Origin: Rhizophagus irregularis
Taxonomy: Eukaryota; Glomeromycota; Glomeromycetes; Glomerales; Glomeraceae
DNA length: 64,000 nucleotides
Direction of reading: 5' to 3'
Assembly: GCF_026210795.1 (NCBI RefSeq)
Contig: NC_089448.1
Coordinates: forward strand, 3,756,001-3,820,000
In this document: one piece after another, positions 4,616 to 57,132 of the stretch
How the letters are laid out: the number at the start of each line of letters is the position of its first letter
How positions within the stretch are numbered: the first letter of the stretch is position 1
The notes under the pieces: generated by a model
What the model was told of the DNA's origin: nothing
Database searches by the model: none
What the model saw: the letters and a program-made list of their open reading frames with translations, nothing else
Made by a program: the position numbers and the translations under genes

Positions 4616-5053
4616 GATGAGAAAAAGTGAATTATAACAAAATAAAATGCGTCTTTAAATAAGAATTTTATTGTCGCACTTAATTAATTAATATTATTAA
4701 TGATTGACTACTAATTTCAGTAGATCGTGACATTATTGTTTCACTAATTTAGTTTGATTGATCTTACCCTTAAATTAGTTAATCGTGTATTACTATTTTG
4801 AAACATTTCTTCTTGTTCTAAAAATAACTTTTTCTTCTCCTTAATTATTTCCACGTATAATTATTATCAGCTGTTACTGAATTTTTCGCGTTATTTTTGT
4901 TATTTCAACTAGAATGTATTTTTTTGCATCGTGTCTTTTTTTTATTTAAGAACCTAATTTTTCCTTTCCCCTTTTTTTCGCTTCTTCGCAAAATCTTTTG
5001 CTTATATTACTTTTGTCAAAACTTATATAATTCCCTGAACACCTTATATTAAA
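4616..5053. promoter_or_regulatory. Divergent spacer between the two gypsy accessory genes
   Basis: 438 bp separating the minus-strand accessory frame (start 4615) from the plus-strand one (start 5054). It contains a pyrimidine-rich stretch (about 4930-4990) and CTTATATAATT near 5022 as a TATA-like element for the plus gene. Promoter function is inferred from the arrangement. Confidence 0.35.
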
Positions 5054-5739
5054 ATGCCGTGCCGTCATTCAAAAACTTCCTCCAAAAAATTACAAGCTCA
5101 ATTTAAGGCTCTAAAGGCTGCTCATAAATCACAAGTTCATCAATTTAAGGGTGAGTATTGCACGCAAGGTTCTTAAAATGTTTCTTAAACGGGGATAGCC
5201 TACAGACGGGGTTTTGATCTTATATCCAGTTCTTGAATGGTTGATTTCTCTTTTTGGCTTGCAGACGGGATACTTGTACCTCTAGGATATTTAGTCTTGA
5301 ATGGATTCCCACTGTAGAACTTTTTTGGGCTATCGATTTATTCACTTAGTCTTTGACTAACTTGGTGTTTCTACTTTCCTATTTAATAACACAAAATCAA
5401 GTTCAATCCTTACAAAAAGAAGTTACAACTCTGACGGAGTTTGAAATTTTACAATCTGAGCAAATTCGCCAACAAGAAGAAGAAACGCAATTCCATAATG
5501 AACTGTGGGCTATCGTCCAAAAAGAATGTTGGGAAGCCCAGAAGAAGGTTATACAGCAAGATAAAGAAATCGTCGAACTAAAGAAAAAATTAGGTCAACT
5601 AAAAAAAGACTATGAAATAGCTACTCTTACTTGGCACGCTCCTGTTAGTCATTTTTTTCAAATACCAGAGCGTTTAATGGAATATAAGTCTGATGAAGAT
5701 TTGACTGATTCCTCCTTTTCTACTACTTCCTATGACTAG
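5054..5739 (+). CDS. Gypsy antisense accessory gene, spliced, coiled-coil, about 144 residues
   Basis: Exon 1 is 5054-5150 (MPCRHSKTSSKK...), exon 2 is 5402-5739; the intron starts GTGAGT and ends ATCAAG and the phases join. Most of exon 2 is a charged coiled coil (QEEETQFHNELWAIVQKE, then WEAQKKVIQQDKEIVELKKK) with an acidic serine-rich tail. It runs opposite to gag-pol and converges on the integrase end near 5846. A homologue with the same intron position and conserved intron sequence is found antisense at the same place in the second gypsy element (21402-22036). Function unknown; no nuclease, protease or membrane segment seen. The intact frame contrasts with the broken pol genes around it. 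Confidence 0.7.
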
Positions 5740-6863: not shown

Positions 6864-7714
6864 TAGAGCTCCGAATGGGTCAGGTCAGGTTAGGTTAATT
6901 GATAAACCTGACCTGAAATTTTTTTTCAGGTCAGGTCAGGTCAGGTTATATCAGGTTGTCTGTTTGACCTGACCTGACCTGAAACCTGAAAAATTTCAGG
7001 ACTATTTTTATTAAGTATTGAAAAAAAACGGTACAAAACTTTTTTTTTTTAATATAACATTATGAAAAAAATGTTTTCGCAACGTTATTATTGAAATATC
7101 AAAAAAAAAATGTTACGAAACATTTTTTTAATATAATATTATGAAAAAACGTTTTCGCAACGTTTTTTCTCGAAATATTGCGATTCAACATTTTTATATT
7201 AAAATCATAAAAAAGTGAATCCCAATACTGCAATTCACTTTTTTTATATAGAATTAATATAAAAAAAGTGAGTTGCGGTATTGCGATTCACTTTTTTATA
7301 TTGATTTTGTATAAAAAAAGTGAGTTGCGGTATTGCGATTCACTTTTTTATATTGATTTCATATAATAAAAGTGAGTTGCGGTATTGCGATTCACTTTTT
7401 TATATAGATTCTATATAAAAAAAGTGAGTTGCGGTATTGCGATTCACTTTTTTATATTGATTTCATATAATAAAAGTGAGTTGCGGTATTGCGATTCACT
7501 TTTTTATATAGATTCTATATAAAAAAGTGAATCGCAATACTGCAACTCACTTTTATTATATAGTAGAATCAATAGTTTCAGGTCAACAGGTCAATCAGGT
7601 CAGGTCAATCTTTATACCTAACCTGAATTTTTTTTAAAAATCTCATACCTGACCTGAATTTCAGGTCAGGTCAGGTCAGGTTACCTGAATTTGGCTGACC
7701 TGTTCAGAGCTCTA
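6864..7714. mobile_element. 851 bp hAT-type non-autonomous element (AGAGCTC family) carrying a satellite
   Basis: The ends TAGAGCTCCGAA and TTCAGAGCTCTA are inverted repeats, and the 8 bp ATTATAGC (6856-6863 and 7715-7722) is duplicated on both sides, the hAT signature. Subterminal sequence is rich in GACCTGACCTGA/TCAGGTCAGGTC repeats. The centre is a 52 bp tandem array. No transposase. It lies in the gypsy integrase, so it inserted after that element. Confidence 0.85.
7206..7565. repeat. 52 bp tandem repeat array inside the hAT element
   Basis: The unit containing GTGAGTTGCGGTATTGCG recurs at 7268, 7320, 7372, 7424 and 7476, an exact 52 bp step. Each unit is nearly self-complementary (GTGAGTTGCG... 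against ...CGATTCAC). The outermost units at both ends are in inverted orientation, so the array is itself bounded by inverted copies. Confidence 0.85.
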
Positions 7715-8163: not shown

Positions 8164-8934
8164 GGATTTGTTTATTTATTGTAGGAAATGGACTTCTAGA
8201 TTTTAGGGAAAAATGAAAAATGGTAAAGTTCTAAAGAGGAGTTTGGGTAAAGAAACGTTCTAACGTTTCTTTTTTCTTTATTTTTGTAGGGAACGACTTG
8301 GGAACGGTCTTGAAGGACCTCGGGTAAGTTGAATGGAGGAAGTTTGGGGAATTAACTTAAAAGAAACGTTCTAACGTTTCTTTCTTAATTTATTTTTGCA
8401 GGAAACACCAGGAAAACCTCGGGTAAGTCGAATGGAGGGAGTTTTGGGAATTAATTTAAAAGAAACATTTTAACGTTTCTTTTTTTTCTTTATTTTTGTA
8501 GGAAAAGACTTGGGAACGGTTTTGGAGGACCTCGGGTAAGTTGAATGGAGGGAATTTTTGTGATTTGACTTAAAGAAACGTTCTAACGTTTCTTTTTTTT
8601 TCTTTATTTTAGTAGGAAACGACTTGGGAACGTCTTGGAGATCTCAGGTAAGTTGAAAGGAGGGAGTTTTTATAAAATAAATTTAAAAGAAACATTCTAA
8701 CGTTTCTTTTTTCTTTATTTTTGTAGGAAATGACTTGGGAACGGTTTTGGAGACCTCGGGTAAGTTGAATGGAGGGAGTTTTTGTAGATTGACTTAAAGA
8801 AATGTTCTAACGTTTCTTTTTTCTTTATTTTTATAGGGAATAGCCTTAGAAAAGCTATGGTTGATGCAGTGTTATTAATAAAGAATCAGTCAATGATGTT
8901 TTCATTAGCAAATGATTTATTAAAGCGGAAATAA
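8164..8934 (+). CDS. Mini-exon gene inside the pogo element (11-residue repeats)
   Basis: Five near-identical exon-like blocks (first 8290-8323, 34 nt; others 21-34 nt) each start after TTTTTGTAG or a variant and end in CTCGG before GTAAGT. Most encode variants of the 11-residue unit NDLGTVLETSG. A last exon beginning GGGAATAGCC reads NSLRKAMVDAVLLIKNQ and ends at TAA 8932-8934. Every intron has AAACGTTCTAACGTTT, an inverted repeat whose centre holds a CTAAC branch-site motif, about 20 nt before the acceptor. The 5' exon and start codon could not be fixed, and some block lengths break the frame, so whether one protein is made is uncertain. It runs opposite to the transposase. Confidence 0.5.
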
Positions 8935-25579: not shown

Positions 25580-28500
25580 TTATGTTTTGCTTTCACTAGA
25601 TGAACCTTTAATATTATTACGACTTTTTAAACTTCTTCTTTTACTTAATAGAATAGATCCACCAGGACCATAACCTATGGCTTCTTTATATTTAAATTCA
25701 TTATCAGGATTATCTCCAAAATTAATTTCAATTGTACAAGGACTATTAGCACCAATTGTAGGAAACCAAATATGCTTTATATTGGTAAAAGCGCAACCCA
25801 AAAATTTTCCATTTTTAGTGAAGAAAACATCTCCACTATCAGAATAATACCCACAACCAATAGTGTCCTCAACTTTTGTCCAATCAGGTCCGTATTCAAT
25901 ACCAATACTATCATTATTAAATTTTTGACCATTTATAGAATGATAACCAACAGAATATAAATTTAAACCAGGTAATCTAAAATGAGGGTAAGGTTTAGTG
26001 GCTAAACCAATAGCAATATTAGTATTGTAAGGATCCATATATTTTATTACTGTTATTTCATAATAATGTAATTTTCTATGTGGTGTTTTTTGAGGTTGTA
26101 CAAACATCGTTTCAGAATATCTAATTTGTTCACCTTCTACAATAACTCCTTCACCTTTTTCAAAAATAGGTATAAAACAAGGATAATTGGTTTGTATACT
26201 AATATCCATATTATCTAAAAATTCAATAATTTCTCCTTCTCCTTGAATTGAAACTAATTGATCTGATTCATCATTAATCCATTGCCATGCTTTTACTCCT
26301 CCAATATTTTGTATCTCAGCAATATGTTCTGGAGGTGGTAATTCTTCTATAGGTGGATTATTTTTTGTAAAATTTTCAGCTTTTTCTTTAATATAAAAAA
26401 AATCAGTTAGTTTAAATTTATATAAATATTATAACAATAAGTAATAATAAAACATAATTAAATAAATAAATTATAACTTACGATCTATTAAATAAAAAAA
26501 TTAGTTAGTTTAAATTATATGTAAATATTATAACAATAAATAATAATAAAATTAAATAAATAACTTACCAACTAAAAAAAATTACAAAATAATTTTTAAA
26601 TAAAGAAATTAATTAGTTTAAATTATATGTAAATATTATAACAATAGTAAAATTTTCTTTACCTTTTTTATATAAATAATCAATGTTATTTTGTGCTTCA
26701 GTATGTCCATTTTTTACTGCTTTTTTATACCAATCAAGGGCTTTCTTTAAATTTATTTCTATCCCTTTACCATTTTGATAGCATATAGCTAAATTATACA
26801 TTGCATTTTTATGTTCATTTTCTGCTGCTTTTTGATACCAGTAAAAGGCTTTTTTTAAATTTTTTTCTGTTCCTTCACCTTTTTCATATAAACAACCAAT
26901 ATTATTTTGTGCTTCAATATGTCCATTTTCTACTGCTTTTTGATACCAGTAAAAGGCTTTTTTTAAATTTTTTTCTGTTCCTTCACCTTTTTCATATAAA
27001 CAACCAATATTATTTTGTGCTTCAATATGTCCATTTTCTGCTACTTTTTGATACCAGTAAAAGGCTTTTTCTAAATTCTTTTCTATTCCTTCACCATTTT
27101 TATAACATTCAGCTAAATTATACATTGCATTAATATTATTATTTTCTGCTGTTTTTTGATACCAATTAAAAGCTTTTTCTAAATTTTTTTCTATTCCTTT
27201 ACCATTTTTATAACATTCAGCTAAATTATACATTGCATTAATATTATTATTTTCTGCTGCTTTTTGATACCAATTAAAAGCTTTTTCTAAATTTTTTTCT
27301 GTTCCTTCACCATTTTTATAACATTCAGCTAAATTATACATTGCATTAATATTATTATTTTCTGCTATTTTTTGATACCAATTAAAAGCTTTTTCTAAAT
27401 TTTTTTCTGTTCCTTCACCATTTTTATAACATTCAGCTAAATTATACATTGCATTAATATTATTATTTTCTACTGCTTTTTGATACCAATTAAAAGCTTT
27501 TTCTAAATTTTTTTCTGTTCCTTCACCATTTTTATAACATTCAGCTAAATTATACATTGCATTAATATTATTGTTTTCTATTGCTTTTTGATACCAATTA
27601 AAGGCTTTTTGTAAATTTTTTTCTGTTCCTTCACCATTTTTATAACATTCAGCTAAATTATACATTGCATTAGTATTATTATTTTTTACTGCTTTTTGAT
27701 ACCAATTAAAAGCTTTTTCTAAATTTTTTTCTGTTCCTTCACCATTTTTATAACATTCAGCTAAATTATACATTGCATTAATATTATTGTTTTCTACTGC
27801 TTTTTGATACCAATTAAAAGCTTTTATTAAATTTTTTTCTATTCCTTCACCATTTTTATAACATTCAGCTAAATTATACATTGCATTAATATTATTATTT
27901 TCTACTGCTTTTTGATACCAATTAAAAGCTTCTTTTAAATTTTTTTCTATTCCTATTCCATTTGAATAATATGTTGCAACTTTAAATATTGCAAGTAAAT
28001 GATTATTTTTAGCTGCTTTTTTATAAAATTTAAATGCTTTACTTTCATTTAATTCAATTCCTATTTTATTTTCATAACATCTACCTACATTATAATATGC
28101 AAGATTATATTTATTATCAGCAGATTTTTTATACCAATAAAAGGCTTTTACATTTTTTTCTGTTTTTTTACTATTTTCATATAGCATTCCAAGATTATTT
28201 TGTGCAATTCTATGTCCTTTTATTGCAGCTTCTTTATAAAATCCAAATGCTTCTTTATTATTAACTGTAACTTCTATTCCTTTTGAATAAAAATATCCAA
28301 GTTTAAATAATGCATCTAAATGTTCATATTCTGCTGCCTTTTTATAAAATTCAAATGCAAATTTCTTATTATTTTCTTTAAATTCAAAATATAAACCTAA
28401 ATTATAATATCCATCTTTATATTCATTTTTTGCTGATTTTTTATACCAATCAATAGCTTTTTCTAAATTTTTTTCTATACCATCACCATTTTCATATAAT

Positions 28501-31500
28501 ATTCCAAGATTATTTTGTGCAATTTTATGTTTTTTATTTGCAGCTTCATTATAATATTTAAATGCTTCTTTTTTATTAACAGTAATTCCTATTTCATTAT
28601 AATAACAATTTCCAACCTTAAATATTGCTTCTAAATACTTTTTCTTAGCAGCTTGTTTATAATATTCAAATGCTTTATATTTATTTACTTTACAACCTAT
28701 TCCATATTCATAATATTTACCCAAATTATAAATTTCTTTTTCATTTCCATTTTTTGCTGCTTTTTCAACTTGATGAAATAAATCTTTTATATTACTTTTT
28801 ACATTTATGTTATATACATGCAATGTATTAAGCATATTCTTTCCTTCAGTACTTTTTTCTGCTAATTTTTCAATCCAAAATATTGCCTTATCTGAGTTTT
28901 TTTCTATTCCAATTCCACTTTTATATAATAATCCAAGTTTATTTTGTGCATAAATATTTTCCTTATTAGCAGCTTTTTCATAAAATTCAAATGCTTTTTT
29001 CTTATTAACTTTAGTTCCTATTCCATTCATATAACAGTATCCTAATATTACTACTTCATTATTATAATTTTTATTATTTTTAAATAATTGTTTAAAATAT
29101 TTAAATGCTTTAACATCATTTTTTTCTATTCCTTTTCCATTTAAATAACAAATTCCAGTATAATACTTTGCTAAATAACTTGCATTTTCATAAAAAGTTA
29201 TATGTTTACTATTAATCACATTATAAAATAAATTAAATGCTTTTTTATAAACTTCATTTGTTTTAATAATAAAATAATAAAAATAACCAAGTAAAAACAA
29301 ATTATTTAAATTATCTTGATTGCTTAATAACCAGTTAAGCATTTTCTTTAAATCTATATCATTGGTAAAAAACTTTTCAATTATTACTTGAATTCGTTTG
29401 CTTTCATCAAAAGTAAAATATTTTTCATTTATAAGAAAATCTATTATTTGATTAACAATATTGTTTAAATTATCATAATTAATATTATTTTCATTAATAT
29501 TACTTTCATTAATATTAAATTCATTAGCATCATTATATTTATCAATAATAAAATTTTCTTTTGTTAAAATATTTCCAATCAAATTCAAAGAAAATTCATT
29601 TTCTTCATTATCAATCTTTAATTTCTTAAAATCAGTAAAGATACAAATATGTAATTCTATGGAAAAATTCTCTACTAAAACATCAACTTCATAATCAATA
29701 TAATTATTTTCATTCACATTTAAAGCTCTTAAAATTGGATTGGAATGGAAAATAATAGAATTATGTGACCATTTAACAAATTTAATTAAATCTGCAGGTT
29801 CATTATTTATTGGTGGATGATATGTATTAATGGAAATTACACATCCTTGAGATAATTGAAAAGGAGTTTTAATTTCATAATAAGATTTATCTGGTTGTAA
29901 TAAAATTGATTCATTAATACAATCAATTTGACATATTCGATTTTTTGGACTAAATACTGATAATTTTGAAGGTTTTCCAACAATTACCCATAAAATATAA
30001 CATTTTGTAATTTTAAGATGTCGATTTTTTAAATCTTCTAGGTTTTTTATAATTGCAGTAAATCCTTTAAAATCATAAAATTTAAATTTTACAGAAAATT
30101 CTCCTGATTTTTCTAATATATCATCTGATACTATTGAACCAAAAACTTCATAATCTTGATCCTTTAATGATAAATTAATACTTATATATTTATAATTTTC
30201 AGTATTATCATCATTTAAATCTTTTAAATCATTTCTTCCAACCATTATAACTTTGTAACCTTCATCAAAAATGATGTCAATTTGCTTTTGTTGTTCATAT
30301 TGAAGCATATCATACAAATTAATGATATTATCATATTCAATAATTTCCAAATCATCTTTATTCTCTCGAATAAAATCTGGCAATTCATCAATTTCAATCT
30401 TTTCTTCTTTAGTTAATAAATATGGAATTTCAATTTCGATCTTTTCTTTTTGAGTTAAATCCGGCATTTCAAGATGTTTCAAATAAGATTTTAACGACTC
30501 AATTGTTGATATTTTTGAAGATACTCGATCAAATTTTGGAGAAAATCTTGTTGAAATATAATTAAAAGATTTCCCTAAAACGATTTTCTGTGGAAATAGA
30601 TAACCGTATTTATTAAATACATCTTGTAAAGCTTCACGTGGCCTCATATCTTTAATTGCATTTCCTATATCTTGTCTAAACCCTTTTGAAAGTGTAATAT
30701 TATCCCGAGGTAAAAAAATCTCATATTGCTCATAATTGATTATAAAACAAATATTATTTTCATAATTTTTCAATTTTTCACCATTCACATCATCAAATAC
30801 ACTATTAAAAATATGTGACTTTATTTTTTTAACTGAAGAAATCTCTAACTTATTTGAGGAAATTTCTAATTCATTTGTTGGCTTTTTGAATTTCAAATGA
30901 AAATTATCTTTTGACTCCAAATAAGGATATTTTTTAATTAAATCAATAAAAGCTTTGTGGGCAATCTCTACTTCAGAATTTTTATTGATGATTAAGCCTT
31001 GAAAAAGATTGAAGCTATCGATCCATTCAGGTAGATTGACATATATTGAATCTTTTACCCATTCGCCAAAATTCAATCTATCTTTATAATTAGCAACTTT
31101 GATTATTTTTTCATCAAAACCTTGAATATTATCTACAAGTTGAGGATCATCTTTTAATTTAAGAATAGGAATAGGATTAATATAAGAAATTACATCAATC
31201 ATATTCTCTTGATACAAATTTTTCATCCAATTAACCAACTCTTCGGTAGTTGTTATTTCTTTTCCATCCAAAGTTTCTATTGTAGGTTCAAGTTGCACGT
31301 TAATATTGTATAATTGATTTTGATCTTCGCGTTTAACCAAATTATATGCCCAGTTTAAATGCATCTTTAAAAGATGAATTTGTGTTGTAGTAGCTGTATT
31401 CAAATCTTTAATAAATAATTGACCGCCAACTAAAACTTTTTTTGAAAAAAAATGACCATAATAATCATTCAATTTTCCATCCGTATTCTCATAATTCAAA

Positions 31501-42755: not shown

Positions 42756-45307
42756 CACTGGTCAAAATAGTCCAAATCGGCCAAAATTCAGCCAGCCGAT
42801 TTTAGGCTGATTTATGGTCTAATGCTGGTCGAACTTTAGCAGATTTTTTGGCTGCAATTCACTGCCACTCGCCTAAAGTTCGGCTTGAAATTTTGGCCAA
42901 AATTCAGTTAACATTCGGAACAATTTCAGATAGCAAATTTTGGTGAATAGTTTTCCAAATGTTACTTAATTTATATTGCAAATTTGTACTAAATTTATTT
43001 ACTAATATTCAGCCACAACTCATTTTATTTGATATTCGCAATAAAATCACAACTTTATTTATAAATGCATATTACAAATAAGTATTGCTAATCTACAATT
43101 CCACAATCACATTATTCATGTATTCGTATATACTTACGAATCTTGATCTTTTGGAAATCCACCAAAACTATAAAAAAGAAAAGAACGGTTAGTAACCATT
43201 CCATAATATTAAAAAAAAGCAAAAAAACCCAAGATTCTACTTACGAATCTTTGGTTTTTTCTGTTTATCGGAATCCACTTGAGACACCAAACCTATAAAA
43301 AGAAAAAAAGAGCGGTTATTAATAACCGTTCATAATAATATTAAAAAAATAAAAAATAAACCAAGATTCGTACTCGTATTTACGAATCTTGGTCCCACTT
43401 TTTCTAAAGATCCCGAAACCTACAAAGAAAAGAACGGTTATTAGTAAACCGTTCGTAGTAATAAAAAATAAAAATAAAAAATAAAAAAAAGAACCAAGAT
43501 TCGTACTTACTTACGAATCTTGGTTTTCTGTTGTTCTTCAGAAGCCCACTGAACTAAAAAAATAAAATAAGAACAGTTATCAGTAACCGTTCGTTAATAT
43601 TATAAAAAAAAAATAAAAATAAAACCAAGATTCATACTTACGAATCTTGGTTTTTTCCATTCTTCAGAAGACACTGACCTAAAAAAAAAGAAAAAGAACG
43701 GTTAGAAACCGTTCGTAATAATAAACAAAAATAAAAAAATAGATTCATATTGAATCTTTAGTTTTTTCCGTTCCTTGGAAAGACGGAAATCCACCCGAAC
43801 CTATAAAAAAAATCAAAGGAACGGTTAATGTTTCGTTCATAACGATAAAAAAGATTCGTAAGTATATTACTTACGAATCTTAAAGATCTCCTTCTTCCGT
43901 TCTTCGAAGTTCACCCAAATATAAAAAAGAAAAGAACGGTTATTAGTAACAGTTTATTAATAAAATTAAAAAAAAATTATAAAGTAAAGATTCGTACTTA
44001 TGAATCTTTACCTTTGGGTTTTCATTCTTCGGAAGCCCACCTGAATCTAAAAATAAAGAAAAAAACGGTTATTAGTAACCATTCGTAATAAAGAAAAAAC
44101 AAAAAAAAAATTATAAAGTAAAGATTCGTACTTACGAATCTTTACCTTTGGGTTTTCGTTCTTCGGAAGCCTACCCGAACCTAAAAAATAAAGAAAAAAA
44201 CGGTTTTAGTAACCGTTCGTAATAAAGAAAAACAAAAAAAAATTATAAAGTAAAGATTCGTACTAATCTTTACCTTTGGGTTCGTTTTTCGGAAGTCCAC
44301 TAGAACCACAAAAATAAAAGAAAAGAACGGTTATTATGCTTAGTTCGTAATAAAGAAAAAAACAAAAAAAAAAATTATAAAAAAAAGATTTGTACTTGCG
44401 AATCTTTATCTTTGGGTTTTTGTTCTTTGAAAGCCCACCCGAACCTAAAAAATAAAGAAAGGAACAGTTATTAGTAACCGTTCATTAATAAAATTAAAAA
44501 AAACAAAAAAATTAAAACTAAGATTACTTACGAATCTTGGTTTTTTTCATTCTTCGGAACTCGGAAGCCCTACCTGAGACGCTGAACCTATAAAAAATAA
44601 AAGAAAAAGAACGGTTAATAACCGTTCATAATATTAAAAAAAAATAAACCAAGTTTTAATTTACGAAACTTGGTTTTTTCCATTCTTCGGAAGTCACCCG
44701 AATGGCCGAACCTAAAAAAAAGAAAAAAGAAAGAATGGTTAGTAACTGTTCATATTAAAAAAAAAATAAAATAAACTCCAAGGTATTCGTACTTATGAAT
44801 CTTTGGAGTTTCTGTATTTCGGAAGCCCACCCGAACGGCCGAACTTAAAAAAAAAGAAAGAAAAAAGAACGGTTAGTAACCGTTCGTATTAAAAAAAATA
44901 AAATAAACTCCAAAGTATTCGTACTTACGAATCTTTGGAGTTTTTGTACTTCGGAAGTCCACCTGAAAGCCGAACCTATAAAAAAAAAAGTGAAAGAGGG
45001 AAGGGGAAGGAAGAAAAAAGGAAGGAATGGAAAGGGAAAGAAGGGGAAATAGGGAAGGGGAACGAAGGAAAGGAAAGGGTAGGGGAAGAAAAAAATTAAA
45101 AAAAAGTTTAAAAAAGGATGATCCTTTTTAAACTTTTAATACGCGTAATGCATAATGCGTAACGTTTGATTAAATAATTCAATAAATCGACCATAAATCA
45201 TATATGTCGAAATTTGGCTGATTTTTAATAATTTCCGAAATTTGGCCGAAATGTGTGACAGATCAGCCGATTTGTCACATGACCGAAAGTTTTTATTTCG
45301 ACCATTG
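42756..45307 (-). mobile_element. CACTG-ended DNA transposon with mini-exon array, 2.55 kb
   Basis: Left end CACTGGTCAAAATAGTCCAA, right end ATTTCGACCATTG (one base off the perfect complement), flanked by the 3 bp CTT on both sides (42753-42755, 45308-45310). This is the CACTA/EnSpm pattern. The left end closely matches the right end of the element at 48316-54006. No transposase; the interior is the array at 43130-44990, pyrimidine/purine-skewed DNA and an inverted repeat near 45105-45145. Confidence 0.75.
43130..44990 (-). repeat. Array of about 15 mini-exon cassettes with splice-site hairpins
   Basis: On the minus strand, about every 125 bp: a pyrimidine tract ending TTTTAG/TAG, a 25-50 nt exon-like block, GTAAGT, then a GAACGG...CCGTTC inverted repeat with TTACTAAC at its centre about 25 nt before the next acceptor. 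Example block 44136-44180 (45 nt) can read SGRLPKNENPKVKI; others give GGLPKYRNSKDS. The donor lies in the centre of AAGATTCGTA-AG-TACGAATCTT (44121-44142), repeated in most units. Block lengths vary and a few acceptors or donors are mutated. The start and end of any transcript are not defined. Confidence 0.7.
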
Positions 45308-48168: not shown

Positions 48169-48399
48169 AGGAACCTAAAAAGTTTACAAGATGTCAACAT
48201 ATCAAGCAAGAAGTGCTCAACACAGACAAGTCATCCGATCAGTTCTAGCTGAACTCAAGCAGGTACCTGTCAAGTCCATCCCATATTCCCGCTCAAATGC
48301 AAAATTGCAGGAATACACTGGTCGAAATCAAAAAAATCGGACATATGGAAAATCAGCTAAAAATCAGACCAAAATCGACTGACATTACAAATCGGCACA

Positions 48400-48960
48400 T
48401 CTGATTGATGCCAATCAGACAATTTAATGAAAATCCAGAAAAAAATCATCATATTTGATTGACGGCTGATTGATGCTAGTTGAAATCAAAAAAAAATCAG
48501 ACAAATGGCAAATCAACCTAAAATTTACCCGATATTCAAATATGATACTTCAGATTTATGGAAAATTAACAATTCAATAAAAATTCAATAAAAATTTGAT
48601 AAAAATTTGGCAAAAAAATCATCATATTTGATTGACGGCTGATTGATGCTGGTTGAAATCAAAAAAAAAAATCGGACAAAATGGCAAATCAACCTAAAAT
48701 TTACCCAATATTCAAATATGATACTTCAGATTTATGGAAAATTGACAATTCAATAAAAATTTGATAAAAATTTGATAAAAATTCGGCAAAAAAATTATCA
48801 TATTTGATTGACGGCTGATTGATGCTAGTTAAAAATCAAAAAAATCAGACAAATGGCAAATCAGCCTAAAATTTGCCCCAATATTGGTTAAAATTACAAA
48901 TTGGCACTTCTGATTTGTGGCATACTGGTTAATGATTTATGGTTGAATCTTTTCATATTA
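48400..48960 (+). repeat. Left subterminal tandem repeats of the CACTG element
   Basis: About four degenerate units, each with TTGATTGACGGCTGATTGAT followed by a CTGGTTGAAATCAAAAAA-type piece and GGCAAATCAACCTAAAATTT. Subterminal repeats of CACTA elements are usually transposase binding sites. Confidence 0.7.
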
Positions 48961-49204
48961 TTGATATATGTAATTTATAATAAATAATAAATATTCGGTT
49001 ATCCTTATTAAAAATTGCATGAACGGTCCCTAATATTATTGTTGGATGATTTAAACTATATAATAGTCTAAATCATAATCTGCCACCTGATTTATTTAAT
49101 AGTTAGAAATTTGCTCATTTTTCAATTGGATATCAATCAAAATTAAACTATTATAACATTTACTATTTGCTGATCAATTATAATAAGACGCGACGCATAT
49201 TATA

Positions 49205-49485
49205 TTAATAAAAGTACATCGGGAAAGTTTTTGAGGTACAAAACTGCGGAGATCTGCAAAATTAGCTTTTTTTTGTCATTTTTTGTGTATTTCTGCGAAG
49301 TTCTGCAACTTCGCAGATAATTGAATATTTTTATCTATAAAATCAGCGAAATTCTGCAATTTTGCAGAATTTCATTCAACAGAAAATTTAAAACAAGCCA
49401 GACTTGCGAAGTTCTGCAAAATAGCAATATTGCGAAATTTTTTATGGAGCAGTTCTTCGCAATTCGGTAATTCCAGTGTACATTA
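49205..49485 (+). repeat. CTGCAAAAT-rich segment shared with 56154-56460
   Basis: Begins CGGGAAAGTTTTTGAGG..., then AACTGCGGAGATCTGCAAAA, with several TTCTGCAA/TTGCAGAA inverted pieces. TACAT occurs on both sides (49215-49219, 49479-49483), but the ends are not inverted, so the element type is open. Confidence 0.5.
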
Positions 49486-49679
49486 GAAAAAGAATTGCAC
49501 TGATTGGTCATATGGGATGATCAGTTACTAGCCGAATTTAGACTTTGACATTTATTTAAACTTTAAACTTGATAAAGTTTTGAAACTTAATCTTTTTCCT
49601 TTTGAAAAGTTTTGAAACTAAAAGAAAAAACTTGATCTTTTTTCTTTTAAAAAGTATCGAAGCTAAAATTCGAAATTTT

Positions 49680-52600
49680 TTTTAAAAAAAATTAATTTTC
49701 GTAGGACACCAGCCCTACGAAGTTTCTGAAAGTTTCGAAGTACAGGATGAACGAAATTAGTAATTTCGTCCAACTTTGAAGTTTTTTTAAAATTTCGAAG
49801 GTAAGTTCAAAATTTTACTTTTTTTTCATTTACTTCTAAACGAAACGTTTCTAAACATTTTGAAATATATTGTTTTTAATTTAATTACTTTTATCGAAAC
49901 GTTTGTTAACGTTTCAATAATTTTATTATTTTTATTTTTAACGAAACGATTTTAACATTTCGAAATTTTATTTTAAAAAATTTTATCGGAACGTTAAAAA
50001 ATGTTCCGATTTTTGATTTTTTTATCAAAATGTATTTTAATGTTTTGAAATTTTATTTTTCTTTATATCGAAACGTTAAAAATGGTTCGATTCATTTTTT
50101 ATTTTAATTTTTAAATGAAACGTTTTTAACGTTTCGATTTTATTCTTAATTTTCAAACAAAACATTTTTAATGTTTCAATTTTATTCTTAATTTTCAAAC
50201 GAAACGTTTTTAACGTTTTGATTTTATTCTTAATTTTCAAACGAAATGTTAAAAACGTTTTGATTTTATTCTTAATTTTCAAACAAAACGTTAAAAATGT
50301 TTCAATTATTTTTTTTAATTTTCTTAATTTTCTTTATATCGAAACGTTAAAAAATGTTTCAATTTTTAGTTTAATTTTTAAACGAAACGTTTTTAACGTT
50401 CTGAAATTTTTTTTTAAATTTTTCTTTATATCGAACTGTTTTTAACGTTTTGATTTTTTTAAAATTCTTTTATCGGAACATTTATTAACGTTCTGATTTT
50501 TTTTTTCGAATTTTTTTGTAGGGTTCCGGTGCTTTCTAGACGAATTTCGAAGGTAAAACTTTGAAATTGTTTCTTTTTTTTCGTTTATTTAATGAAACGT
50601 TTATTAACGTTTCACTTTTTTTTTAGATTTTTGTCTTTCTGGCAGTTTCCTGGGTGGAACTTCAAAGGTATTTACCTTCGAAAAATTAATTTTCCGGATG
50701 CTGTTTTTACCTTGCCACTTTTGAATTGTGTAAAAAAGTTGGCCATTCATAGAAGACTGGACGGAATTTCGAAGGTAAAAAAAAAACTTTGAAATTATTA
50801 ATTTTATTTTCTTTTATTTTTTTTTTGTTTAATGAACGTTTGCTAACGTTCTTTATCTTTTTAGGTACAGAAAGCCGATTGGAATCCCAATTCGAAGGTA
50901 AACTTCGAATTTTATTTTATTTCTTCTTAAACGAAATGTTTGCTAACATTTTTGTTTTTTTCTTTTTTGTAGACCTATGGCCTTCCAGATGGGTTCCTGA
51001 GCAAAAATTTAAAGGTATTTACTACCTTGTATTTTTTTTTGTTATTGTTAACGAAATGTTCTTATTAACATTTTGATTTTTTACTTTTGTGGGTCCATGA
51101 CTTCTGAAAACTTTTTCGAAGGTAAAACTTTGAAATTCTTTGGTTTTAATTTAATAAAACGTTTATTAGTAACAGTTTGTTTTTTTTGTAGGGTTTTGGT
51201 TCTCCGGATCTTGGACAAAAGAATTTGAAGGTAAACCTTCAAAAATCTTTATATTTTTGTGGTTTTTTTCTTTAACGAACGTTCTACTAACGTTCGCTAT
51301 TCTTTTATTTTTAGGTCCTGGCTCCCATTTGAAAGAACTTCGAAGGTAATAACACTTCGAAGTTCTTTATTTTTAGTTTTAATGAACGTTCTACTAATGT
51401 TCATTTTTTATTATTTTTAGGTTCCGGACTTCCATTTGGAGAACTTGGAAGAACTTCGAAGATAATAGCACTTCAAAGTTCTTTATTTTTAATTTTCTTT
51501 AATGAACGTTCTACTAACGTTTCGTTATTTTATTTTTTTTAGGTCCAGAACGCCGAAGGTATGTTCCGGACCCATTTGAAGGTAAAACCTTCGAAATTAT
51601 TTTTTTTTTTAATTAATTTATTAACGAACGTTAACTAACGTTCGTATTTCATTTTTTTTTAGGTAAAGAAAGCCGGAAACTAGTTCCGGACTTCCATATC
51701 GAAGGTAAAACCTTCGAAAATTTTATTTTTTAATAATAATTTGGTGAACGTTAATTAACATTCGTACTTCTTTTTATTTTTAGGTGAAGGAAGCCGAAAG
51801 ACTTCGAATTTTTTTTTTCTTGGATACTAAGAGAGGGTAAGTTTCGTAACGAATTTTCATTATGAAACTTTAATTTTTTTTTCGTTTTTTTAAGAAACAT
51901 TGACTAATGTTTCTTATTTATTTTTGTAGATTCTGATACTCGAATCCAAAACTAAATGGTAAGTTTCGTAACGAATTTTTTCGTTATGAAGCTTAGTTTT
52001 TTTTTTATTTTATAAAAGAACGTTTCTAATGTTCTTTATTCTTTTTTGTAGTTTCGGTACTCCAAAGATTCCCGAAACGAAAATAGTAAGTTTCGCAACG
52101 TCTCGTTGCGAAACTTTATATATATATTTTTTAATTTTATAAAGGTTAAAGAACGTTTTTTTAACGTTCTTTTATTCTTTTTTTTTAGATTTTCGGCTCG
52201 TCTGGATTTCAACATGGTAAGTTTCGTAACGAACTTTTCGTTACGAAACTAATATTTTTTTTTATTTTATTTAAATGAAACGTTACTAACGTTTCGGTTT
52301 TCTTTTTTTTTTAGGTTTTCTGCTTCCTGGGCGGCATTTTGAAGGTGAAACTTCAAAAAAAAATTTTTTTTTATTTTATTTTAATGAACGTTAACTAACG
52401 TTCGTTCTTAATTTTGTAGGTCCAAAACACCAAAGTGCAGGGCTCCAATTTGGCCAATCCTATAGGTAAAGTTTTGAAGTTTCTTCCTTCGAAACTTTCA
52501 TAAAAAACGTTTATTTTTAACGTTTTTTATATTTTTTATAGGAAATCGGCTCTGATTTGGCCAATCTTATAGGTAAAGTTTCGAATTTTTGAAACTTAAT

Positions 52601-52960
52601 AAAAAAACGTTTATTTTAACGTTTTTTAATTATTTTTTATTTTTTTTTTGCAGGGAAATCAGCTCCAATTTGGATACTGGAATCCCGCAAGTAAAGTTTC
52701 AATTTTTAAAACTTTTTGACGAAACTTAATAAAAACATTAACGTTTTTTATTATATTTTATTGATTTTTTTTTGCAGGGAAATCGGCTCCAATTTGGATA
52801 CCGGAATCCCGCAAGTAAAGTTTCTATTTTTGAAACTTTTTGACGAAACTTAATAAAAAACATTTAATTTAACGTTTTTTTATTATTTTTATTATTTTTT
52901 TTGTAGGAAAATCAGCTCCGATTTGCCATCCTACAGGTAACGTTTTGATTTTCTGGGAAT
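49680..52960 (+). repeat. Array of more than 20 mini-exon cassettes with branch-site hairpins
   Basis: On the plus strand, every 100-170 bp: TTTTTTAG or TTTTGTAG, an exon-like block of about 22-46 nt, GTAAAA/GTAAGT, then an inverted repeat such as AACGTTCTACTAACGTT with TACTAAC at its centre roughly 25 nt before the next acceptor. Examples: 50865-50897 (33 nt, VQKADWNPNSK), 50973-51014 (42 nt), 51192-51230 (39 nt, GFGSPDLGQKNLK). Donors often sit in TTCGAAGGTAAAACCTTCGAA or GTAAGTTTCGTAACGAA inverted repeats. The first part (49850-50480) has only hairpins, as if the exon blocks were lost. A few sites are mutated (GATAAT donor at 51462; GTGG acceptor near 51085). First and last exons are not defined. 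Confidence 0.7.
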
Positions 52961-53189
52961 TAAGGAATTTAACATATACCGGATTCCCAGGTTAGTTTCG
53001 AAACAAAAAATTTGAAACTTTTATAAAAAAGTATTTTATTATTTACGCAATTAAACATTTTTAACATTATTCTGGGTCTTTTAGACGCATGGAAATTCAG
53101 TAAGGTGATTTTAAACAGCTACTTCACCTTTCAAGTTTTCAGGCAACTGGAATATTGATTTTTGGGCGAAATTGTTTTATATGTATATG

Positions 53190-53850
53190 TAATATTTTAA
53201 ATTTCAGAATAAAATTTACTGTAATTTGCGATACAATTCAGAATAAAATTTACTGCAATTCAAATGCAATTCAGAATAAAATTAACTGCAATTCAGAATA
53301 AAATTTACCACAATTTAGAATAAATTTACCGCAATTCAGAATAGAAATTTACCACAATTCAGATTAAATTTACCGCAATTCAGAATTAAGGTTGCTTGTC
53401 TAAACTTCTTCAAAATCCTACAATTGGTTTCGTCAAAATTTTACTATAGATTTATTATAGTTTCGGCAAAGTTTCAGCAGTTTCGCCTTTCTCCAAAGTT
53501 TTGCCAGTTTTTTAATATAACTTTAATATAGTTTCGGCAGAATTTCACTTTTCGGCGAAACATCATCTTGCCTAAACCCCTAGGTTTCGGCAAGCAACCT
53601 TATTCAGAATAGAAAATTTACTGCAATTCAGATTAAAATTTACCGCAATTCAGAATAAATTTACCACAATTCAGAATAGAAAATTTACCGCAATTCAGAT
53701 TAAAATTTACTGCAATTCAGATTAAAATTTACTGCAATTCAGATTAAAATTTATCGCAATTTATCAAAATTTATCATAATTTAGAATAAATTCACTGCAA
53801 TTCAGTAAATTTATGAATATATTTTTTTAAACAATTCGGATTAAAAATAC
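53190..53850. repeat. Right subterminal tandem repeats of the CACTG element
   Basis: Short degenerate units AATTCAGAATAAAATTTACT / GCAATTCAGATTAAAATTTA repeated about twenty times, interrupted by the MITE at 53387-53602. Confidence 0.7.
53387..53602 (-). mobile_element. 216 bp hAT-type MITE (AAGGTTGC family), copy 2
   Basis: Ends TAAGGTTGCTTG and CAAGCAACCTTA with the 8 bp TTCAGAAT duplicated (53379-53386, 53603-53610). Same family as 18772-19015, in inverted orientation. Confidence 0.85.
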
Positions 53851-54299
53851 TAAGCAATTCAGATACAATTTGGATATTCTGATCAGCATCGATCGGCCTG
53901 CCAATCGGAACTTTGCCTAAATTAATAAATCGGCCATCTTTATCACCAAATTCAGCCTAAAATTGGACATCCGATTTTTAGCCGATTTGGACTATTTCGA
54001 CCAGTGATATGAGGATGAGATTCGCCAAATCCGTGAAGCACAAGCGGTGGTAACCAATAAAGAAATAACCCGCATGATGCAAATCGACTCAGACCCACAT
54101 TATGAGGTAGTCTTTGAACGTCGTGATCAAGTACGCATAGGAAAAGAGTTAACAGATTCAAACTTTATGGCGATATTGCTATAGGAACACCTGGAGAGCA
54201 TGACTATGCTTCATTTCTCACAGCACACAGTCAAACAATCCAGAATATTCTTTGGGATGAATGAAATCGATTGGGATCAATAAAGGTAAGAATTGGAAT

Positions 54300-56153
54300 A
54301 TTACTGACAATAAGACGTTTAGATTCTTACCTTGAGGATTATTCGGAGATAGTAACTTTAGTGAAGATGATAGAGTAGAGTATATCTACAGATATAATAT
54401 ACCATTTAAAACTCGCAATATGCCAATCCTACCATCAACAGATATTAATGGTACATTTAACTTTGCATTAGCAAGAATCATGCAGAAAGTAGAAGACTAT
54501 GTAAATTACGGATCAGGTTGGGAATTCTATCGTGTAGAAAAAATATTCATAGAAATCTCGCAATTCCAACCACCCACAGGAGCAGGACACATATCACTCC
54601 CAAAAGATCTTGCCATGAAAAAGGGAGTAGTAAATCCAGCTAATGATGATGACAAATGCTTCTAGTGAGCAATCCTAGTAGCATTACATCCAGTAGAAAA
54701 GAATGCAAAAAGAATTTTCAAGTATAAGGAGTATATAAACGAGTTAAACTTTGAAGGTATCAAGTTTCCAGTACAAGCTGATGAGGTAATTCTAAGAAGA
54801 TTTGAGTGACAGAATCCAACTATTGCCCTCTGCATCTGTGAATGGCGTGACCACCGCCTATGCCAATATATGTTACTAATAGGGATGAAGTAGAGAGACG
54901 TAAAATAATAGATTTAGTACTTATCAGTAACGGGAAAAAGCAGCACTATTGCTGGATTAAGAATATGAGCCGTTTAGTAAATAAACGTACAAAAGATGGA
55001 CATGCAACATTTGTCTGCTGATGGTGTATCTCCCACTTCACACATCAACAAGAAATCTATGATAAACATGTAGCAATATGTTGAGGATTAAAGAAAACTC
55101 CACAAGCAGACCGCATGCCATCAGTAAAGAAAGGAAATGATATATATGAATTCAAGAACTGGAAACGCCGCATGCAAGTCTCATATTACTTTGTTGCAGA
55201 CTTTGAAGCCCTAGTAATGAATATACCACCCACAGATGAAGACAAAGATAAGAAAACCAAGAAAGTACAAGAGCAAATCCCCTGCTCATACTCGTATATT
55301 AAGGTAAGATATGATGAGGCTGAAGCAATTCGTAATGAATTCAGAAATCCAATGGAAATGATGCTATTAACAACCCAAAAGCAAGTAAGTTATGATAATG
55401 CAATAAACTGCTGGATATGTCGTAACCCCTTAGATGGAAATAAAGTAAGAGACTACTGCCATATTACAGGGAGGTATCGAGATGCAGCACTAAAGGATGC
55501 AATACGACTTCATCCATAAAACCTCGCGAAATGCATATTACCAGCAATCTTTCGCAATTTATCAGGATATGATGGAGGGCACAATAATTATGCAAGAAAT
55601 TGGTGCAATAGAATGTGAGGATGATATTGATCCTATCCCATTATAACGTGGAAAAGTATATGGCATTCAAGTTAGGTTACTTCGATTTATAGACACCTAC
55701 AATTCATGAAATCAAGTCTTGACAAATTAGCATCATACAGGTGCAGAAAAAATGTAGACGCAAAGAATGTAGTAATCCATAACACTTATGGCGAATTGAT
55801 GCAGGTAGATGCTTTGCACATCCCGAAAACTTTAAGATAACACGAAGTCAAATACCACCTGAATTACTCGAGATTTATCTTAAGAAAGATGTCTACCTGT
55901 ATGAATATATGGATGACTGGAAAAAGTTCGAGAAAACTAGTTTACCACCTAAAGGAACATTCTATAGCAAACTTAATGAAACCCACATTAGTGATAAAGA
56001 ATACGAATATGCACAGTATGTATGAGAAAAAGCAGGATGTAAAACAATACAAGATTATCATAACATTTATCTCAAAACTGACGTCCTCCTACTAGCCGAT
56101 ATATTTCAGAATTTCCGAGAAATGGCCCTGAAAAAATATGGGTTAGATCCTCT
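54300..56153 (+). pseudogene. Protein-primed DNA polymerase B of a Maverick/Polinton-like element, broken
   Basis: Plus-strand pieces in several frames: LPKDLAMKKGVVNPANDDDKCF (a conserved stretch before the polymerase, starting near 54600), then WAILVALHPVEKNAKRI, SYYFVADFEA (exonuclease motif I, D-x-E), CWICRNPL...YCHITGRYRDAA (zinc-binding insert), FRNLSGYDGG (exonuclease II), and [21 protein letters not shown] (exonuclease III). The palm motifs are missing because the frame is cut at 56153 by other repeat DNA. Many stops and frameshifts (54661, 54808, 55519, and more). Such enzymes replicate linear DNA with terminal proteins, in Polintons, adintoviruses or linear plasmids; which source applies here is undecided. 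Confidence 0.7.
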
Positions 56154-57132
56154 CTATCGGGAAATTTTTTAAGATGCAGAACTGCGGAGATCTGTAAAAT
56201 TAGCAGATCTCCGCATTTTTTTTGTGAATTTATGCGGAAGTCTGCAATTTTGCAGATTTTCACTTTTTATTTTTTACAAAGTTATGCAATAATTTGCAAT
56301 TTTGCATGTTTCTGATTTTTTATGTATGCATTTCTACAGAAAGTCTGCGATTTTGCGAATTTCTGCTTTTTTTTATGTGAAATTTTTGCGGAAGTCTGCA
56401 ATTTTGCAGATATTTGCTTTTTTTTCATTAAAATATCAGTTCGATCTGCAATTTCATCATTTAAACTTTAATTAACTCTAATTTGATTTAATACCTAAAT
56501 GATTTTTTCTACAATACTCTTTAAAAAAAAAATTTTACAAGACTTTAAAAAATAATTTTTCTACAACACTTATTACTAAAGAAAAAACTTTGTGAAATAA
56601 TTTTTTTTACAACACCTTTTAGGAAATAATCTGTTAAAGATTTCAAAGAAAAAATATTTCTATTATAGTTTTTTAAGCTTTGAAACTTATCAGAGAAATT
56701 TTTTTTTTTAAAAAAAAAATTTATTTGCAAGGTTCGGAGTCTTTAAGGCAAATTCGTCCAACATTCGGCATATAATCTGCAACATGCAGGAGATTCGAAC
56801 TAAAAAGATGTCGGACTCCTTTATCTCCTTCAAAAAATACATTTTACAGAACGCCGAAGGTATTCTATTTCAAACTTTGATATTAATATTATTTAACGAA
56901 CATTAGAAAATGTTCATTTTATTAATCCAGAACACAAAAGGTACGTCCCTGACTTCCATTTTAAAAAAAAATTTAACGAAACATTAGCTAAAGTTCGTTT
57001 TATTTTTTTTTTTGTAAGTCCAGAGCGCCAAAGACCAGTTCTGGCTACTATTTCGAAGGTAAAACTTCGAAACTAATATTTTTTATATACTGGACGTTGT
57101 CCAACGTTCAGTTTATTATTTTCTTGTCCTGG
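56154..57132 (+). mobile_element. Fragment related to the 48316-54006 transposon
   Basis: Starts CGGGAAATTTTTTAAGATGC with CTGCAAAATTGCAGA-type repeats (as at 49220), then AT-rich DNA and two or three mini-exon-like blocks (about 56850-57065) with text AACGCCGAAGGTA and TCCAGAGCGCCAAAG resembling 51543-51560. Inserted in the polymerase pseudogene. Ends not defined. Confidence 0.5.

Follow-up and report, generated by a model that had tools for sequence, protein, structure and literature searches.

In a 64,000-nucleotide (nt) stretch of the Rhizophagus irregularis genome (contig NC_089448.1, positions 3,756,001 to 3,820,000; hereafter the window), a tandem array of short exon-like blocks and intron-like intervals lies inside a transposon with CACTG ends. 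The explanation that we favor, at a probability of about 0.5, is that this array is carried as cargo by a non-autonomous DNA transposon of the CACTA/EnSpm type, and that the cargo is competent for splicing and for the most part non-coding. Three observations favor it over a chance satellite: the hairpins in the array are tied to splice signals, the grammar reappears in arrays whose sequences are dissimilar, and the arrangement keeps a fixed orientation at two types of transposon end.

On the plus strand, each unit of the array begins with a T-tract and AG, followed by a short block, a GTRA donor and a hairpin that carries a branch-like motif, before the next AG. Boundaries were curated by hand for 49801-52936, which yielded 19 intron-like intervals and 19 blocks; 18 of the 19 intervals are 70-103 nt long and the first is 721 nt, while block lengths range from 28 to 53 nt (n = 19). 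This list leaves out two weaker blocks, one of 22 nt at 50753-50774, used in the placement of protein P0012 described below, and one ending at 51121 that has lost its acceptor AG. Adding both brings the candidates to 21, in near agreement with the more than 20 units, with blocks of 22-46 nt, that a first-pass annotation of this DNA had counted. Donors are GTAAGT, GTAAA-N or close to these, with one broken exception (ATAATA at 51462). Donor, branch, polypyrimidine tract and acceptor stand at the usual spacing of U2-type introns: the branch adenosine precedes the AG by 18-26 nt in 15 of the 19 introns (full range 18-45). The same annotation had placed TACTAAC at the center of an inverted repeat. 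The inverted-repeat setting was recovered in 12 of the 19 introns as a perfect branch-site stem of 6-12 bp anchored on AAC, but the exact heptamer occurs in only three of them (three occurrences in 49680-52960), the remaining branch motifs being relatives such as AACTAAC, TGCTAAC, GACTAAT, TATTAAC and TTTTAAC. A second hairpin on the donor side, absent from the first-pass annotation, is frequent and often takes in the splice site itself (e.g. TTCGAAGGtaaaACCTTCGAA). Splice-like grammar is thus present on the plus strand from 50522 to 52936, and it is kept while the sequence of the blocks drifts, both as first described; the part of the originally claimed span at 49840-50500 is exonless. When 11 segments were folded, five reached z scores of -3.8 or lower. 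No Rfam model matched at its gathering score in the window or in L037, L034 and L017 (L-numbers denote loci from the genome that was searched, 146.7 Mb in 32 contigs).

The position of hairpins relative to splice signals was examined in 18 array segments that were parsed on splice signals, with a branch score and a length filter and no hairpin criterion; 181 introns remained after exclusion of those whose branch motif was weak or whose length was unusual. Perfect stems of at least 7 bp centered at -3 from the branch adenosine occur in 31% of these introns, a figure raised because four segments (L001, L004, L037 and L038) had been found via the hairpin pattern, the others having come from transposon ends, the window or a random sample. 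At other offsets between -60 and +44 such stems occur in 0-5% of introns, and measured from the donor they peak at 13% at +3, with a second peak of up to 7% near +19. Among candidate ordinary introns, which are candidates under identical scoring with wider exon limits at 19 random loci (L017 left out) rather than known introns, a 6-bp stem was found in 2 of 382 and an 8-bp stem in 0 of 382. Compensatory change in the stems, which the first-pass annotation had named as a check, is visible as covariation between the arms. Across 165 unique arm pairs, 43 stems of at least 8 bp were observed, compared with a mean of 11.3 (maximum 23) when right arms were permuted over all arrays and 23.1 (maximum 35) when they were permuted within arrays; for stems of at least 6 bp the observed number was 63, compared with 45.3 (maximum 54) and 50.9 (maximum 59), respectively (200 permutations of each kind). 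Stem arms therefore covary beyond within-array relatedness, with observed counts above every permutation.

The hairpin grammar recurs genome-wide. The pattern AACGTTN{1,3}CTAACGTT has 1,121 matches (573 + 548) compared with 16 (8 + 8) for its reversed form. Hairpins followed 5-30 nt on by TTTNYAG number 650 (329 + 321), a count in which some hairpins were entered more than once; the reversed pattern gave 5 (1 + 4) and a scrambled acceptor, TTTNYGA, gave 49 (26 + 23), many of these with an earlier YAG. Of 82 hairpins listed for contig C1, an acceptor follows in 48 of 65 cases when the loop gives ACTAAC, TCTAAC or CCTAAC, and in 1 of 17 when it gives GCTAAC. As loop type predicts the downstream acceptor, the hairpins fall into two kinds, with and without a tie to an acceptor.

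That the array sits in a CACTG transposon, as first proposed, was confirmed by the ends of the element, CACTGGTCGAAATCAAAAAAAT... and, on the reverse strand, CACTGGTCGAAATAGTCC..., with the 3-bp flank ATA on both sides. The terminal 13-mer CACTGGTCGAAAT, found at 48316 (+) and 54006 (-), has 247 exact copies in the genome compared with 3 for a reversed control. One related copy, L034, aligns along the window element with about 95-96% identity in the five largest blocks. A larger element, L036, whose end regions match those of the window element at 94% in the largest blocks and which does not have the array in common with it, carries an open reading frame (ORF) of 789 aa with a Transposase_21 domain (PF02992, E 2.7e-11); the domain scan was run on L036. 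No transposase ORF was found when looked for in 48316-54006, and the window element, lacking a Transposase_21 ORF, is therefore non-autonomous. Terminal inverted repeats, a 3-bp duplication and Transposase_21 in a full element sharing the ends together identify the family as CACTA/EnSpm (CMC).

Twelve CACTG elements, chosen by end spacing and not randomly, were examined, including two in the window. Arrays were found in 10 of the 12, and all 10 lie in one orientation relative to the ends. All six CACTG pairs spaced 4.6-6.1 kb apart contain one, as do L039 and L040 (about 3.0 and 3.5 kb apart), and an identical scan of pairs spaced 8.4-9.2 kb apart (L035 and L036) gave none. The 3-bp flanks are identical on both sides in 9 of the 12, consistent with target-site duplication (ATA and CTT in the window, ACT in L029, ATA in L030, TTC in L032, AAA in L033, TTT in L034, AAA in L035 and GAT in L040), and differ between sides in L031, L036 and L039. 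The second window element, with ends CACTGGTCAAAAT and CAATGGTCGAAAT and the flank CTT on each side, has its array at about 43160-45000 on the minus strand (stem GAACGGTT-act-AACCGTTC), oriented relative to its ends as the main array is. Separately, tandem perfect hairpins at about 89-bp spacing were seen in L035 at about 4620-5430, and an 89-bp tandem array at L036:4687-5091, both with AG/GT motifs noted by eye.

Arrays also occur beside a second type of end. L037 and L038 contain long arrays with no CACTG ends within the fetched part, and have in common a 3' region (97.5% identity over 404 bp) that stops at CCCGATG. The end CATCGGGAAATTTTTTGGGRAGCAGATCTGCGCAG has 61 copies at up to 2 mismatches (control 0). 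For 21 of 98 AACGTTTACTAACGTT sites, a CATCGGG-type end faces the site downstream within 4 kb (17 different ends), no other arrangement of site and end exists within that distance, and none of the 61 ends is in reach of the other 77 sites; this second, CATCGGG-type element is known from one end. The idea that a CATCGGG-ended transposon, nesting in the CACTG element, had brought the array with it was not supported, and the site at 49217 looks like a separate small insertion: by eye, 49217-49490 may be a nested insertion starting CATCGGGAAAG with GTACAT-like flanks, and a similar start is seen at 56155. A further 3' motif, TTTGTTGGAATCGAACCAACTGGAACAATGTTC, recurs in these loci (L037:3554 and L038:3240); 125 copies exist when up to 3 mismatches are allowed, compared with 0 for the control. 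The complement of this motif includes GGTTCGATTCC, which we take to match an RNA polymerase III B box; ARAGORN found no transfer RNA at the motif in L037 and L038.

Several observations weigh against the cargo explanation. A strict 6-bp branch stem is missing in 7 of the 19 window introns, the median branch stem varies from 2 to 9.5 bp between arrays, and the remaining six of the 11 folded segments gave z scores of -2.1 to +0.8, two of them above 0 (the value of +0.7 for 44010-44120 says little because that segment was not cut at intron boundaries). Between 49840 and 50500, array-like hairpins, mostly with one mismatch, stand without exons and without TACT in the loop, and in L041 most of 14 perfect stems of at least 8 bp fall in an exonless row. 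Such rows, having no exons or acceptors, indicate that the hairpins are not tied to splicing alone and that palindromes also arise or persist where there is no acceptor, possibly by a mutational or DNA-level cause; we argue from them that presenting branch sites is not all that the hairpins do. Selection on donors and T-tracts, considered because neither carries any substitution between the window and L034, was rejected, as CpG and AT composition explain the zero and the comparison thus shows no selection. Over 49901-53300, 69 of 337 CpG sites differ between these two copies, compared with 48 of 605 other G/C and 6 of 2369 AT positions, a strong CpG decay. A search for spliced retrocopies using two junction patterns gave 0 matches. 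Finally, in an engineered system, a ligand-bound structure that sequestered the branch site inhibited splicing (PMC2275289).

The exonless rows of L041 and of the 721-nt first interval, the hairpin-bearing tandem units in L035, a large element without an array, and the 0 retrocopies for two junction patterns would also fit an unspliced satellite. Here a captured exon-intron fragment would have been amplified with its grammar inherited and unused, and the palindromes would be kept mutationally, by template switching or arm conversion in AT-rich DNA, and not by selection. We consider this possible though rather unlikely, as it leaves unaccounted for the centering of hairpins on the branch motif and donor, the prediction of a downstream acceptor by loop type, and the recurrence of the grammar in dissimilar arrays and beside a second end type in one arrangement.

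Another alternative concerns what the blocks encode. The window array and its relatives are annotated with gene models made of numerous tiny exons, which also count in favor of the cargo explanation, and the first-pass annotation had suggested variable repeat proteins like the SP7-type effectors; on this account, the mini-exons of OCT59_013424 (P0012) and its relatives would encode variable repeat proteins, perhaps secreted effectors. P0012 can be placed without a mismatch on 18 exons and 17 introns ending in a TGA stop at 53156-53158, coordinates that come from our own GT-AG placement and not from the model itself. An idealized translation of the joined blocks matches 40 R. irregularis proteins (E up to 1), 30 of which were read in sequence, a search with P0019 returned eight proteins, all from R. 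irregularis, and a C-terminal block is common to P0005, P0012, P0015 and P0019. Among non-stop codon differences from L034, 17 of 38 are synonymous in the P0012 frame, above the 10 of 39 and 7 of 32 in the other frames, but this excess is not significant against a CpG-aware expectation of 0.34 (p 0.10). Block lengths are mixed modulo 3 (7 of 19 divisible by three), and joining the blocks gave no frame longer than chance in any of eight arrays (300 shuffled orders for each, of which 69 to 300 matched the observed length). The P0012 path omits four blocks (50522-50552, 51663-51704, 51784-51836 and 52542-52572), and no Pfam domain is listed for any of the 40 matching proteins. Depending on the model, blocks E3, E4, E9, E15, E17 and E21 are read in two frames; three frames are used for E19 and E20, but these are tandem copies of 37 nt, in which a single protein would be expected to cycle through the frames. 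In L034, the one sister copy on which frame conservation was judged, the start ATG is lost and a stop is gained in the P0012 frame, so no frame is kept between the compared copies.

The comparison with SP7 points the same way. SP7-like effectors are, like the arrays, R. irregularis sequences with repeats and an intron in the gene; their published description (PMC11333574), however, gives them a conserved intron ahead of the first repeat and a protein signature of the family, unlike the single block per predicted exon, the predicted intron after nearly every block and the lack of a conserved frame found here. On the frame and substitution tests, we rejected protein-coding repeats or effectors, and regard a coding role as improbable. 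If the OCT59 models are those described as built with BRAKER2 and RNA-seq and updated with Nanopore data (PMC10234402), some of their junctions may have read support.

It is quite improbable, in our estimate, that the repeats function at the DNA level or in unspliced RNA, whether as transposase-binding or cruciform sites or as small-RNA hairpins for silencing. Their palindromes are dense, tandem repeats occur in array-bearing elements and in L036 alike, and small RNA loci are annotated in the R. irregularis genome (PMC10234402). Such roles would leave unexplained why strand-specific donors, T-tracts and acceptors stand at set distances; moreover, the strict branch stems found in the window are short, at 6-12 bp, and subterminal repeats are already present at both ends of the element.

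Under the cargo explanation, a tandemly amplified cassette, consisting of a block of roughly 20-55 nt and a U2-type mini-intron of about 80 nt, would have taken the place of the transposase. The mini-introns would offer a near-consensus donor, branch and acceptor, with a donor hairpin and a branch-loop hairpin in many units. For R. irregularis spores, transcripts of CMC-EnSpm elements have been reported (PMC8647823). Transcription of the element probably runs in a single fixed direction, and the host spliceosome would remove the introns to leave a short RNA encoding no conserved protein. The local hairpins most likely self-fold each intron, shortening it, and this self-folding would prevent pairing among dozens of near-identical, self-complementary repeats. 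Arrays may expand and contract through unequal exchange, with selection perhaps acting on master copies and other copies then presumably decaying via CpG mutation. A bolder version, which we hold to be speculative and unlikely, sees in these arrays a genome-wide class of transposon-borne, intron-dense non-coding genes with self-presenting mini-introns. In these, a branch-loop hairpin and a second hairpin framing the 5' splice site would let RNA structure help define the introns, and at least two end types would have taken up the cassette because splice-competence aids escape from silencing or export.

Transposons with spliceable cargo and proliferating introns are each known, separately. Introners, near-identical introns inserted at many unrelated gene positions, resemble the arrays in the transposon-linked multiplication of spliceosomal introns, but in the arrays intron and exon multiply together, in tandem, inside one element. 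The internally symmetrical stwintrons of Hypoxylaceae are likewise fungal, pronounced in their inverted symmetry and proliferated (PMC8469720). They have 45-55-nt terminal inverted repeats in an ancestral nested intron and lack short tandem duplications, a lack by which the authors of that report regard DNA transposition as excluded; the arrays, unlike them, have short hairpins at the donor and branch site within CACTG elements, most of which show 3-bp duplications. A precedent for the cargo explanation is Tgm-Express1: this soybean CACTA element of 5.7 kb, and so of similar size, carries gene fragments that are spliced as exons, its internal blocks thus serving as exons for the host spliceosome (PMC1947982). 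Its cargo is five unrelated host gene fragments with splicing shown, in contrast to the about twenty tandem hairpin mini-cassettes that we read from sequence. The window element also belongs to the same CACTA/CMC/EnSpm superfamily as the Plavaka/CMC-EnSpm families catalogued in R. irregularis (PMC11075540), a catalogue whose main text does not contain the words splic-, intron, non-autonomous or satellite. None of the records listed in our keyword searches of one open-access library was a paper on mini-exon arrays in Glomeromycotina transposons. Should the cargo explanation be true, these elements would offer a natural laboratory for the effects of intron structure on splicing and for why transposons acquire introns. 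A practical warning is that part of the R. irregularis 'uncharacterized proteins' whose annotated models string together tiny exons may represent transposon RNA and not proteins. Coordinates are collected in Table 1.

Table 1. Features of the window discussed in the text (positions in the window; z, folding z score).
Feature	Position	Strand	Details
Putative first exon region	49680..49800	+	Inverted-repeat-rich; ends at donor GTAAGT (49801)
Long first intron-like interval	49801..50521	+	721 nt; exonless AACGTT-type hairpins; tandem-repeat period 42
Mini-exon/mini-intron array	50522..52936	+	19 curated blocks
Typical predicted intron	51231..51314	+	Donor GTAAAC; TACTAAC in loop of CGAACGTT-ctact-AACGTTCG; AG 24 nt past branch A; z -5.4
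Predicted intron	51837..51929	+	Donor hairpin AAGTTTCGTAACGA/TCATTATGAAACTT; branch hairpin TAAGAAACATT-gact-AATGTTTCTTA; z -3.8
Predicted intron	52217..52314	+	14-bp donor hairpin; branch hairpin GAAACGTT-act-AACGTTTC (TACTAAC); z -5.3
Span of NCBI protein P0012 (OCT59_013424, 244 aa)	50030..53158	+	GT-AG placement without mismatch
Non-autonomous CACTG-ended (CACTA/EnSpm-type) transposon holding the array	48316..54006	+	Ends and ATA flanks
Left subterminal repeats	48421..48885	.	176-bp period; common to L029-L036
Right subterminal repeats	53203..53805	.	Periods of about 21-44 bp; common to L036 (autonomous-type)
Second CACTG-type element with array of dissimilar sequence	42756..45307	-	Ends and CTT flanks
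Third window array	8249..8837	+	112-nt unit; branch hairpin AAAGAAACGT-tcta-ACGTTTCTTT

No CACTG-type end (at up to 2 mismatches) was found beside the third window array. Neither this array nor that of the second CACTG element appears in the first-pass annotation. Upstream of it, 7176-7563 is dense in 52-bp direct and inverted repeats, with longest arms of 64 nt at 89% and 62 nt at 97% complementarity. Three different mini-exon arrays, on both strands, were seen in L017, a random 10-kb stretch. In the random sample to which it belongs (60 stretches of 10 kb drawn, 20 fetched), the hairpin pattern matched 11 times, 10 of them in L017, compared with 8 for the reversed control, numbers too small for a genome estimate.

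Around the main element, the CACTG transposon splits an open frame starting MSTYQARSAQ (48191-48315 and 54007 onward). Downstream of it lies an ORF at 55115-55519 that resembles a Maverick-type polymerase region and for which Pfam gave no match. Elsewhere in the window, 26709-28673 is a tandem array with a 108-bp period, which from the period alone we presume may represent 36-aa Sel1-like repeats on the minus strand.

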